Source: Gloeomargaritales cyanobacterium VI4D9 | Lineage (GTDB): Bacteria; Cyanobacteriota; Cyanobacteriia; Gloeomargaritales; Gloeomargaritaceae | Direction: 5' to 3' | NCBI GenBank assembly: GCA_927797885.1 | Contig: OV696605.1 | Location: 843,157-907,156 of the forward strand | Length of the DNA stretch: 64,000 nt | In this document: piece by piece, positions 1 to 59,819 of the stretch | Layout of the letters: each line of letters opens with the position of its first letter | Position numbering within the stretch: the stretch's first letter is position 1 | The notes under the pieces: generated by a model | The model's input: the letters and a program-made list of their open reading frames with translations, nothing else | The model's database searches: none | Told to the model about the DNA's origin: nothing | Program-made: the position numbers and the translations under genes

Positions 1-132
1 CTAAATGAGAATGGAACAGAGGGTCGCAGGGGCACCGCCCCCGTAAAAGAAGCACCTGCGGTGTATGGTTCTGAAAAATTTTTGTATGCCTACGGCACGC
101 AAGCTAATGCAAATCAAGTAGGATTGCTATAG
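1..132. repeat. Family A miniature inverted-repeat element, truncated by window edge
   Basis: The stretch matches the better-preserved copy at 10999-11099. It has the AATGAGAAT start, the GGTCGCAGGGGCACCGCCCC core, a GGTTCTG segment, and ends in AGGATTGCTATAG, the family's terminal repeat. The middle is longer than in other copies. A second, very degenerate core (ATCGCAGGGCTTAGCC) lies near 174-190. I see no gene in 1-296. Confidence 0.6.
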
Positions 133-10998: not shown

Positions 10999-11099
10999 TA
11001 TAGCAGTCCTAAATGAGAATAGAATAGGGGTCGCAGGGGCACTGCCTCCGTATTTAGTTCTGGGGAATTTCTCTTCGTTAATCAAATAGGACTGCTATA
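10999..11099. repeat. Family A miniature inverted-repeat element, best copy
   Basis: The 101-bp element is bounded by perfect 13-bp inverted repeats (TATAGCAGTCCTA ... TAGGACTGCTATA). Its core carries GGTCGCAGGGGCACTGCCTCC, which can fold on itself, and an internal AGTTCTGGGGAATTT. It lies 8 bases after the DUF29 stop codon. Confidence 0.85.
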
Positions 11100-11162
11100 G
11101 CGATCCTAAATGAGAATAGAATAGGGGTCGCAGGGCACCGCCCCGCCTTTGGTTCTCAGTAG
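11096..11162. repeat. Family A element, partial copy abutting the previous one
   Basis: It shares the TATA of the preceding copy's end and reads TATAGCGATCCTAAATGAG, then the GGTCGCAGGGCACCGCCCC core and GGTTCTCAG. The distal terminal repeat is missing. Confidence 0.7.
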
Positions 11163-11194
11163 CTTTATTATTTACAGAGATTGTGATTGTTTAA

Positions 11195-13706: not shown

Positions 13707-14743
13707 TTGTTACAGTCTTTTCCTTTATTATGGGGTACAGTAGCAACATTTGGTAAACCAATTTGCAAAAGAAGAAGGATTAATCAATAACAAAGATGCT
13801 TGGATAATTGACTGTATATCCTTTACTGGTGAATCATGAAACTGTCGAATAAAATTCTTTAGAACTGACCACATCATTTCCATTGGATTAAATTCTGGTG
13901 AATACACAGGGAGATATAATAAACGAGCACCAGTCTGGCTAATCATCTGTTGTACTTCTATGGCTTTATGACTATTCAAGTTGTCCATAATTACCACCTT
14001 CTTCTCATTTAATTTTGGGCATAATTCTGTTTTCACAAATTCTAAAAAATCCTGTTTCTTCATGGAGCCTTTGATGATTTTATGACAAACAACGCCCTCC
14101 ACAGATATAGCACCGATTAACGTGTATTTCTGACCCTTGTTTTTCTGGCGATAACTATAAACTTTTTTCCCTTGTAAACTCCATGCAACTTTCCTCTCCA
14201 TGCCCTCCCAGGTTGCTGTTTCATCTACGGCAACTATATCTTCGGCTGGAACGCTTCCAATCTTATGCCAGTATCCTAAGCGTTCTGCACAACTTCACTC
14301 TTGGCTTTTTCACTGCGGAATGTCTTTTTTTTTAGAGTGATTTTATGCTTTTTCAAGAAAGAATACAATGTGCTAATACTCACTTCCTAGCCTTTCTCCG
14401 ATTATCTCAACATATTGCCACAAACACTTATCTGGATACTCTTCAACAATGGCTAAAATCGCAACTTTATTTTGTTCTAAAATTCCAACTCGTTTTGTCC
14501 CTACTTTTTTAGGTGTTAAGTCTTGAGTCTGTTTATACTGTTGTACCAGGCGATGTACTGTCCTTTTAGTTACCAATGGCTTCGCCACGCTTCGCTATAA
14601 ACCGCTTAGCTACTTCCCGGATTGTTCTCCCGCTTGGTATGCAGCTACAATTCTTTGCCGTAAATCTAAGGAATGTGTAGGCATCTCTTTGTCCTCTCAT
14701 TTCTATGGTTTGTATCCCATAATAGCATAAAAGACTGTAACAA
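13707..14743. mobile_element. Decayed IS630-type insertion sequence
   Basis: The ends are inverted copies: TTGTTACAGTCTTTT...TTATGGGGTACA on the left and TGTATCCCATAATA...AAAAGACTGTAACAA on the right. About 1.04 kb is normal for IS630. The single transposase gene inside is broken. The TA duplication typical of IS630 is not obvious at the borders. Confidence 0.85.
13728..14684 (-). pseudogene. IS630 family transposase, broken by stops and frameshifts
   Basis: Three pieces can be read. The N-terminus (MPTHSLDLRQRIVAAYQAGE) starts at 14684 and runs into a TAG after about 22 codons. A second piece (TVHRLVQQYKQTQDLTPKK..., 14373-14588) is the rest of the helix-turn-helix. The catalytic half (13728-14201) has VVIMDNLNSHK and the YSPEFNPMEMMWSVLKN signature, i.e. 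the last Asp and Glu of the DDE triad. At least two frame changes separate them, so no active enzyme can be made. Confidence 0.88.
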
Positions 14744-14800: not shown

Positions 14801-14853
14801 AAATTTTTGCTCACCATTCAGATATATAGCAATCCTATTTGATTAACGAACAC

Positions 14854-15961
14854 CAGAAGTGTTGAAAGGTAGGTAAAGGCAGAAAAAGAGGGGTCAAAAT
14901 ATGGTATTCTAATTCATATAAACCAAAACATGAAACAACTATGAAATTCAATTCTTTTCCCGGGATTGTCAAATTTTTACTCAAAGACCTGCCAACTAAT
15001 GATTATCCAGTTCTAAATTCTCGCTTATTTTGTTCAATCTGGTTTGCTGGCATTTTAGACAAAGGAATCAACAGTTTACGGGACTTATTTTACCAATTAA
15101 ATCATGCGGGCATTAAGGTTGACTTATCCACGTTTTCTAAGGCGAACAAGACAAGAGACCCACAAATTTTTATGCATCTTTATCATAAATTATTGCATTA
15201 TATTGAGGAAGCTCATCCTGAAAAGAGGTTGGTTTTATGTCCTTTTGATGCTACCGTAATACCGCTGATGAGTAAGTTATTTTGGCTCCAAGGCTATCGC
15301 CAAGTAAAGTTAATAACCACTTTGAATCAAGATACGAAATCTACTGGTCATTTAATTGTTAGTCCTGGACAGGCACATGAGATTAATTTTGGTGAAGATA
15401 TTGTGAAAATGCTACCGGAAAATGGAGTCGCAGTCGGGGATAGAGGGTTTTGCAGTCACAAAGTATTTGAACAATTTATCGAAAATGATGCCCTTTTTAT
15501 TATCCGTATTAAGTCGAATTGGAAATGGGATGAAAACTATCATATCACCACAGAACGAGGTAAGGCGAGAGTAGTTTGTTTTGGCAATGTTCAACAGAAA
15601 GTAGACTATTATTTAGCTACCAATATTCCTGAGGATGTAATGAGTAATGAAGAGATAGGGGAAGCCTATAGACAACGCTGGGCGATAGAGGTACTATGGA
15701 AATTTCTAAAGATGAACTTAAAGCTCGATAAAATGATGAGTAAAAATTTGAATGGAATTACCATTCAAATTTATGTAATTTTAATAGTTTACTTGATATT
15801 GCAACTGTTAAAAGTTCCACGGATGTACGGAAGTAAATTGGCAGATAAGTTCCGATATATACAAATCTTAATACGGCAGGAGTGGAATTTTGTCCATTGG
15901 CTCAATCGGGTCGTCCCACGCCTAAATATGTAAAGTTTTATTGCAGGATTCAACACTTGTG
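14854..15961 (+). mobile_element. Complete IS4-type insertion sequence
   Basis: The element is 1108 bp long. Its 13-bp terminal inverted repeats are CAGAAGTGTTGAA and, reversed, CACAAGTGTTGAA (12 of 13 match). It is flanked by a 9-bp direct repeat AACGAACAC at 14845-14853 and 15962-15970, the target duplication. It contains one intact transposase gene. Confidence 0.9.
14941..15933 (+). CDS. IS4 family transposase
   Basis: The DDE transposase has 330 residues and an uninterrupted frame. The first Asp lies in CPFDATVIPL, the second in AVGDRGFCS, and the catalytic Glu in the IS4 signature Y-(2)-R-(3)-E-(6)-K, read as YRQRWAIEVLWKFLK. The A+T-rich codon use differs clearly from the host core genes, as expected for an acquired element. 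With intact ends, target duplication and gene, it may still be able to move. Confidence 0.95.
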   Translation: MKFNSFPGIVKFLLKDLPTNDYPVLNSRLFCSIWFAGILDKGINSLRDLFYQLNHAGIKVDLSTFSKANKTRDPQIFMHLYHKLLHYIEEAHPEKRLVLCPFDATVIPLMSKLFWLQGYRQVKLITTLNQDTKSTGHLIVSPGQAHEINFGEDIVKMLPENGVAVGDRGFCSHKVFEQFIENDALFIIRIKSNWKWDENYHITTERGKARVVCFGNVQQKVDYYLATNIPEDVMSNEEIGEAYRQRWAIEVLWKFLKMNLKLDKMMSKNLNGITIQIYVILIVYLILQLLKVPRMYGSKLADKFRYIQILIRQEWNFVHWLNRVVPRLNM

Positions 15962-16020
15962 AACGAACACAAATTTCCCAGAACCAAGTATGGGGGCAGT
16001 GCCCCTGCGACCCCGATTCT

Positions 16021-16142
16021 GTAGCCGTCCTATTTGATTCACAAACAAAGATTTTCCAGAACCAAGTCTGGGGGCGGTGCCCCTGCGACCCCGATTTTAT
16101 ATCTCATTATCATTTCTTATCATTTCATTATAGGATTGCTAT
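16021..16142. repeat. Family A element in tandem with the split copy
   Basis: It begins TAGCCGTCCTATTTGATTCAC, contains CCAGAACCAAG and the GGGGGCGGTGCCCCTGCG core, and ends TATAGGATTGCTA. A TCATTATCATTTCTTATC insert lengthens the right arm. Confidence 0.75.
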
Positions 16143-26833: not shown

Positions 26834-26907
26834 TTGAACCCCACTTACCGTAGGTCAATCTTGGTAAGCCTTTAGGATGATCGAGGTTTTTTGTATCCTT
26901 TAATTGA

Positions 26908-26992
26908 TATATACCAACAAAAATTTCCCAGAACCAAGGACGGGGGCGGTGCCCCTGCAACCCCTATTCCATTTTCATTTAGGATTGCTATA
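26908..26992. repeat. Family A element
   Basis: It has TATATACCAACAAAAATTTC, CCAGAACCAAGGACGGGG, CGGTGCCCCTGC and ends CATTTAGGATTGCTATA. The right terminal repeat is preserved, the left one degenerate. Confidence 0.75.
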
Positions 26993-35967: not shown

Positions 35968-36412
35968 GCACTCAAGAACACACCCCTAAAAATTGGCTCT
36001 TGGGGCGCAATCCTGTCTCTAGCTCTGGATTCCATGGGTATAACAATCGCAATTGTGAGCAAAATCCTAGGCTCAGGGAATTAAAGGTCGCAGGGCGTAG
36101 CCCCGTTCTGGTTCTTCTAGCTTGCGTGGTGTAGCCATATAACCCTGTTATTCGCATCCATCGTCTGAGATTTCTACTATTCGAGCGAGATAACGTTCTA
36201 CTCGTACAAACTGAGGGGGATACTCCTTTGACTTGAATCATAAATTGCGCTTATTTCTAAGCTCAGAAATTACGAACAAATCCCCCTTCCCAAATCCTCG
36301 GTCACCTTTTAGGATGAAAGGTGGTAAACGCACTCTGCGTTTTTTAGTTCATTTTCCTAAATCTACGCCCACTTTTTTTGCAATTTCGTCTGAGATTGTG
36401 TAGGAGGTCTTT
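35968..36412. other. Intergenic region upstream of nrtA
   Basis: No gene is convincing in this 445-base gap. A degenerate family A core (AAAGGTCGCAGGGCGTAGCCCCG) lies at 36063-36120. A CACCTTT/AAAGGTG palindrome lies at 36303-36323. I searched for the NtcA consensus GTA-N8-TAC upstream of nrtA and found no good match. Confidence 0.5.
36327..36345 (+). terminator. Terminator-like hairpin in the nrtA leader
   Basis: AACGCA and TGCGTT form a 6-bp stem with a 3-base loop, followed by a T run, about 70 bases before nrtA. It could end transcripts from upstream or attenuate nrtA. Confidence 0.35.
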
Positions 36413-47107: not shown

Positions 47108-47168
47108 CAGAACCAGAACGGGGTGCTGTCCTGCGACCCCTGTTTTAAACTCATTTAAAATTGCTATA
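47108..47168. repeat. Family A fragment
   Basis: CAGAACCAGAACGGGG...CTGCGACCCCTGTTTTAAACTCATTTAAAATTGCTATA keeps the core and a degenerate right end. The left half is missing; the HNH gene ends just before it. Confidence 0.6.
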
Positions 47169-49430: not shown

Positions 49431-49504
49431 TCACAACGCCAATTGCACCAAACATCAACTATTTTTAATGGAGATTTATGGATATTTCAAGTATTTTCTA
49501 TGGT

Positions 49505-49606
49505 TAATCCTATCGCAATTCCATGCAATTAACGAACAGAAATTTGCTAAAACTAAGGACGGGGGGTGCCGCTGCGACCTATGTTCTCAATTCGGTTAGG
49601 ATCACC
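49505..49606. repeat. Degenerate family A element between the peptidase gene and the BREX locus
   Basis: It shows AATCCTATCGCAATTCCATG, TTAACGAACAGAAATTTG, AACTAAGGACGGGG, GCCGCTGCGACC and ends GGTTAGGAT. This is the full family order with many substitutions. It lies 34 bases from the end of brxL, at the boundary of the defence locus. Confidence 0.6.
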
Positions 49607-59432: not shown

Positions 59433-59819
59433 CTACCAAAGTCTGATCAATCCGTAACAATCGAACGTCCCATCAGCGGATACAAGGCACAGTCCCTCGA
59501 CCAGGGCGGTTGCGGCAATGAGACGGTCGAACGGATCACGGTGGTATAGCGGCATTGTCGAGAGGGGTTCGATATGAGCCGATTCTAGCGGTAATAAATG
59601 GATGTCTTCCGCCGTGAGGGCGGCTGGAAACATCAACGCATAGGGTTTCGGCAGAGGCAATTTCCCAAGTTTGTACTTTACGGCAATCTCCAACAGGCTG
59701 ATCGGCGAGAGCCACCTTTCCGAAAGTGGGTCTTCGATGGCGTTCTTTGCGTTTTGGCTTAATTTGGGATCGTTAGTCAAAAACCAAAGCAAGGTGCAAG
59801 TATCGAGAAGTAGCCTCAT
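59433..59819 (-). CDS. PIN-domain toxin 3 inside the BREX operon
   Basis: This is an intact 128-residue PIN toxin: LLLDTCTLLWFL, SLLEIAVKYKLGKLPLPKPY, YHRDPFDRLIAATAL and LVSADGTFDCYG supply the acidic site. It overlaps the antitoxin stop by four bases (ATGA) and ends 4 bases before pglX. It resembles toxins 1 and 2 in core motifs but is clearly a separate lineage. Position between brxC and pglX makes it part of the defence transcript. Confidence 0.93.
   Translation of the reverse strand: MRLLLDTCTLLWFLTNDPKLSQNAKNAIEDPLSERWLSPISLLEIAVKYKLGKLPLPKPYALMFPAALTAEDIHLLPLESAHIEPLSTMPLYHRDPFDRLIAATALVEGLCLVSADGTFDCYGLIRLW

Follow-up and report, generated by a model that had tools for sequence, protein, structure and literature searches.

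Miniature elements with the ends of an IS630-type transposon in a Gloeomargaritales cyanobacterium share their GC-rich core with a second MITE family

The dispersed repeats of about 100 bp (family A) found in the 64,000-nucleotide stretch of the genome of Gloeomargaritales cyanobacterium VI4D9 that was analyzed here (the window) are, with high confidence, MITEs mobilized by an IS630-type transposase, and their interior is modular, with a GC core that is common to a second MITE family. The original prediction had taken them for non-autonomous miniature transposable elements, a reading that is supported by copies throughout the genome, by a transposase gene with matching ends, and by duplication of a TA target. 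The GC core is common to MITEs of unrelated transposases. In the following, G000 denotes the genome of the window and G003, G004 and G005 are relatives in the same genus.

The best copy, at 10999–11099, has exactly the perfect 13-bp inverted ends TATAGCAGTCCTA/TAGGACTGCTATA that had been described for it. The consensus of 48 full copies from the genome gives a length of 97–101 bp with 13-bp perfect ends, and a profile built from these copies (cut-off E<1e-4) called nine copies in the window. About ten had been listed originally, and of these the item near 36.1 kb is a core without proper ends. The features are given below, together with an empty target site.

1–131, plus strand: family-A copy cut at the left window edge, with two insertions (68.1 bits)
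10999–11099, plus strand: full-length family-A MITE of the TATAGC type, the reference copy (99.7 bits, E 3e-30)
11096–11165, plus strand: second family-A copy, right-truncated (profile 55.0 bits)
14825–14854, minus strand: right-end fragment of a family-A copy (18.5 bits, E 6e-5)
15960–16020, minus strand: partial family-A copy, core and right arm, abutting 16022–16142 (49.0 bits)
16022–16142, minus strand: nearly whole family-A copy with short left-arm insertions (72.6 bits)
26903–26992, minus strand: family-A copy with left end and core, without right end (85.4 bits)
36086–36115, plus strand: GC core without recognizable family-A ends (from the inverted pair and its flanks)
47108–47168, minus strand: decayed partial family-A copy (31.6 bits)
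49457–49462, no strand: empty target site CAAC-TA-TTTTT (window compared with stretch L126 of G003)
49511–49603, minus strand: old, diverged family-A copy (45.9 bits)

The whole copies are 10999–11099 and, if insertions and the cut edge are disregarded, 1–131 and 16022–16142; truncation or decay has affected the rest. The first 10 bases of the copy at 1–131 lie to the left of the window and its inserts are the tiny repeats AAAGAAGCACCTGCGGTGTA and TGCCTACGGCACGCAAGCTAA. The copy at 11096–11165 abuts the reference copy, the terminal TATA being common to both, and the pair at 10999–11165 could have arisen by insertion of one copy in the terminal TA of the other, in which case a shared TATA would be expected. 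G003 has the diverged copy at 49511–49603 as well, at the orthologous position (L126). Two other features of the window were recorded. A 330-aa ORF at 14941–15933 resembles an IS4-type transposase and adjoins the MITE copies at 15960–16142, and about 210 bp at 59610–59819, coding-like and not a MITE, are absent at the matching place in G003 (L126:12262).

The chromosome is a single contig of 3,162,419 bases, in which the 13-bp end was matched 457 times with up to one mismatch allowed and its reversed control once; for TATAGCAATCCTA and its control the figures are 669 and 1. The abundance of the family-A ends is not due to chance. The genome-wide search that had been proposed was run and returned many copies: a BLAST search with the element gave at least 58 matches, and 464 kb around the window contain 74 copies, 38 of them full length, which make up 1.5% of the DNA and from which about 500 copies per genome can be extrapolated. 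G003 has 156 copies in 920 kb, and tandem family-A arrays with a spacing of 97–106 bp were seen there at G003:C1:1695491-1695978 and 1819685-1820007. Copies indeed occur in both orientations (38 plus and 36 minus in the 464 kb), and the intergenic placement that had been noted holds for most of them: crude ORFs cover 86% of the DNA, yet 68 of the 74 copy centers fall outside.

A search of the genome with PF13358, an IS630-type domain, gave 23 places. One of these is an IS630-family element of 1250 bp at C1:959166-960415 (L056:367-1616), which is the transposase gene flanked by family-A ends that had been called for; it lies outside the window, in agreement with the statement that a helper was not obvious there. 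It has perfect TATAGCAATCCTA ends on both sides (TATAGC..GCTATA), between which an N-terminal HTH part (HTH_23, homeodomain-like, 3e-9) and a C-terminal DDE part (PF13358, DDE_3, E 1e-15) are found, and its right end agrees in 26 of 27 bases with the left end of the consensus MITE. A family-A MITE at L056:693-794 interrupts this helper. A protein search of the genome with the C-terminal part detected only three short fragments elsewhere, so that no intact helper was seen and family A has probably lost its helper in this genome. Homologues whose ends are identical or almost so are present in G003, G004, G031, G028 and G022. Some helper-type copies in G028 have an uninterrupted frame of 360 aa; those in G003, G004 and G031 have two frames with an overlap at an A-run. 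A full transposase from the G003 and G004 helpers requires a frame change at this position, and the two frames may be joined by slippage at the A-run. The window does contain another IS630-family element, at 13707–14743, with inverted ends TTGTTACAGTCTTTT... and a 157-aa DDE part at 13728–14201; this transposase domain was overlooked in the original prediction and has seven identical-scoring copies in the genome. It was rejected as the family-A helper since the element has other ends.

The proposed TA duplication was looked for and was found to be precise at three empty sites in comparison with a close relative. At the first site the MITE in L056 (CACC-TA-[TAGC...GCTA]-TA-TTAG) faces the uninterrupted homologue CACC-TA-TTAG of G003. 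At the second, the MITE is present in G003 with its TA duplicated and the window is empty at 49457–49462. At the third, a different TA is occupied by a MITE in a second G003 helper copy, where L056 is uninterrupted. These sites define the family-A unit as TAGC...GCTA, with a length of about 97 bp. The GGGMACC-ended family described below has two empty sites of its own, and yet another insertion family, whose ends are TATAGTAATTTCA/TGAAATGACTATA, was encountered at G003:C1:917774-917889 (L146), with a TA duplication and without the GC core; this site is empty in G000 (C1:675041).

A helper with the same ends, together with the TA duplication, points to a MITE family cross-mobilized by an IS630 transposase. 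In the mechanism we propose, an IS630-family (Tc1/mariner-type) transposase acting in trans would insert family A at TA and thereby duplicate it, the family-A ends would descend from those of an IS630-like element located elsewhere in the genome, and a transposase of the L056 type would have moved the copies. REP/REPIN-type repeats, which are moved by the RAYT transposase, a Y1 HUH enzyme, without target duplication, are likewise palindromic, intergenic and of high copy number. Family A duplicates a TA and has long perfect ends that are the same as in a DDE-type IS630 element. These features rule out this identity for it, and the chance that it applies is negligible.

The whole element folds well compared with shuffled sequences (z about -4 to -5), and the original description of a foldable GC-rich core is partly right. 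The core by itself is not more stable than shuffled sequence (z about -0.7), which does not support it as a self-standing stable structure; the strong folding is due to the inverted ends. This folding and the intergenic bias would also suit elements kept mainly as functional intergenic RNA or DNA structures, for example terminators or mRNA stabilizers, rather than as transposons. However, selection against gene disruption already predicts an intergenic bias, copies are found inside transposase genes with a TA duplication, insertions are polymorphic among relatives, and the core alone folds no better than stated above. An Rfam search found only RNase P and no family that matches the element. 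Retention for such a function is thus very improbable, and the transposon reading is preferred.

Family A and its helper can be compared with known cyanobacterial systems. Nezha, a cyanobacterial MITE (Zhou et al. 2008, as cited in PMC10969869), and the MITEs of Anabaena sp. 90 are, like family A, small non-coding elements with inverted ends and high copy number that are mostly intergenic, and some of them disrupt genes, as family A does; for Nezha this comparison is one of published description. The Anabaena sp. 90 elements were called type II, no IS with matching ends having been found (PMC3542288), whereas for family A such an IS was found. The helper resembles ISY100, and IS630 and Tc1/mariner elements in general, in its DDE transposase, duplicated TA target and cyanobacterial host, and in inverted repeats (24 bp in ISY100) that are likely the sole requirement in cis (PMC2170065). 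ISY100 is 947 bp long with a single frame of 282 aa (PMC2170065). The helper differs in its length of about 1130–1150 bp without the insert, in its two frames that overlap at the A-run in this genus, and in its TATAGCARTCCTA ends.

Within the genus, G003, G004 and G005 have hundreds to tens of family-A ends, and G001, G002 and G006 have 0–2, which is the chance level. The end pair at a spacing of 86–116 bp, which was set by the search pattern so that element length across cyanobacteria is not readable from the matches, occurs in more than 109 public genome stretches that by title are nearly all cyanobacterial; a few Oscillochloris/Chloroflexales records also carry it, and a search of viral contigs for the pair gave none.

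The GC core of about 33 bp (GGTCGCAGGGGCACCGCCCCCGTNNTTGGTTCT) is not confined to family A. Comparison of G000 with G003 revealed insertions with other ends and the same core. These belong to a second MITE family, whose ends (GGGMACCTCTA) are unrelated to those of family A; it duplicates a 4-bp target and has an IS5-like helper. The helper, a 1243-bp element at C1:809262-810504 with matching GGGMACC ends and the target duplication AAAT, has the transposase domains DDE_Tnp_1 and DUF772. An exact 4-bp duplication was present in 31 of 90 GGGMACC candidate pairs, which were chosen by their ends alone with overlapping pairs included. The core is present in 24 of these 31 elements and the rest have other interiors, which means that the same ends carry different cores within one genome. 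Among 171 core matches in the G000 and G003 samples, 82 are flanked by TATAGC on both sides, 12 by GGGMACC on both sides, and 13 are hybrids that combine one TATAGC end with one GGGMACC end; the remaining matches have one or no recognizable end. At ≤2 mismatches the core occurs 343 times in G000, 243 times in G003, 189 times in G004 and 105 times in G005, and 0–1 times elsewhere. Copies sharing only the core had been named as evidence against the MITE reading, and they do exist in part, since the same core is also found in GGGMACC MITEs and in hybrids. They leave that reading intact because this core is also part of a second MITE family, which has ends and a target duplication of its own. Tiny repeats of 20–22 bp (AAAGAAGCACCTGCGGTGTA, TGCCTACGGCACGCAAGCTAA and AGCCTGCGTGGCGTAGCCATTA) are also common to both MITE families; they are SDR-like, and at a given place some copies have them and others do not.

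The occurrence of one core in TATAGC, GGGMACC and hybrid elements argues that it was passed between families, and MITE ends and middles appear to have been exchanged. Most likely this would have involved first capture of the core and then recombination or template switching within the shared core. Both families and the core may already have been present in the common ancestor of G000, G003 and G004. A core variant with GTCGCC is common in G004, where it is present in GGGMACC elements, in one TATAGC element and in one hybrid, and it is rare in the other two genomes (1 of 35 exact matches of the two forms in the G000 sample and 1 of 58 in the G003 sample). Its frequency in G004 and its presence there in both families, together with its near absence from the other two samples, suggest that exchange went on after the species split.

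The core could also be a very small mobile element in its own right that inserts in MITEs of any family and is not exchanged by recombination. Nostoc SDRs, 20–30-bp modules that recur inside larger repeats (Elhai et al. 2008, as cited in PMC4390886 and PMC3116915), would be the model, and in the features reported in those accounts the tiny inserts, like the core, resemble them; the core is unlike them in its length of about 33 bp and in its presence in two MITE families with known helper types. The core borders are fairly sharp in both families, a few copies have neither kind of end, two to three other modules of 20–22 bp (AAAGAAGCACCTGCGGTGTA, TGCCTACGGCACGCAAGCTAA and AGCCTGCGTGGCGTAGCCATTA) are present or absent at fixed places in both, and the SDR5 module is described as inserting precisely within HIP1 sites (cited in PMC4390886). 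Against independent insertion, a core-less family-A element with arms cleanly joined at the core borders was not found, the 3 of 63 two-ended elements that score as core-less being deletions or core variants, and no case was met of a core as an insert in known sequence with an empty counterpart. We therefore consider independent mobility of the core less likely than exchange between families.

Other cyanobacteria give a mixed picture of core sharing. TATAGC ends surround quite different cores across the phylum. In Calothrix PCC 7103 the palindrome GTAGAGACGCG-N6-CGCGTCTCTAC has 143 copies, and among 37 that were read 9 have TATAGC ends, 8 have TCATGTCCGG, 2–3 have CTCGGTTAAG and the rest have others or none, so that one palindrome is found with three or more end types. 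For Tychonema bourrellyi, TATAGC ends enclose 14 of 19 cores and a second end type was not seen, so core sharing is not universal; it was found in two of the three lineages examined, which were not randomly chosen. It is conceivable, with a confidence somewhat short of even, that cyanobacterial MITEs in general are modular, with a lineage-specific hairpin core that is exchanged across the families of unrelated transposases and that persists where the ends do not. A literature search returned no account of a core shared across MITE families; novelty is claimed with caution, as the original papers on Nezha and on very small mobile repeats were outside its scope. In a text search one of the end 11-mers occurred in 23 papers, and the titles of the 20 listed are unrelated to cyanobacterial repeats.

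The genomes G000 and G003 have about 93% identity in conserved stretches, and the conserved blocks are only 1–18 kb long. A comparison was based on 42 block ends from one third of G003 and on crude ORFs. For 16 of these ends a MITE is 100 bp or less away in G000; the corresponding shares are 5% for random positions and 26% for random intergenic bases. The excess of MITEs at block ends is thus large relative to all positions and modest relative to intergenic bases. Inside conserved blocks 4 core elements were found where 16 are expected by length. In the window, a block conserved with G003 begins at 11125, within the copy at 11096–11165 and at the left edge of its core. The link between MITEs and breakpoints is an association, both having a preference for intergenic DNA. 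No excess of hybrids was seen at synteny breakpoints (9 of 72, against 18 of 99 for elements with matched ends; p 0.40), and crossing-over at these breakpoints is therefore not supported as their source.

As MITEs, the family-A elements are ordinary in kind, with evidence that is unusually complete in comprising the helper, the ends, the duplication and polymorphic insertions, and with a helper that is broken by its own passenger. Since block ends are often near them, they are also candidates for driving rearrangement in the genus. The sharing of the core outweighs the MITE family itself in importance, and it can be checked by sequence alone in many cyanobacteria. If interiors are exchanged between families, grouping MITEs by their interior would mix unrelated elements, and something would have to keep one short core in the genome across transposon families.
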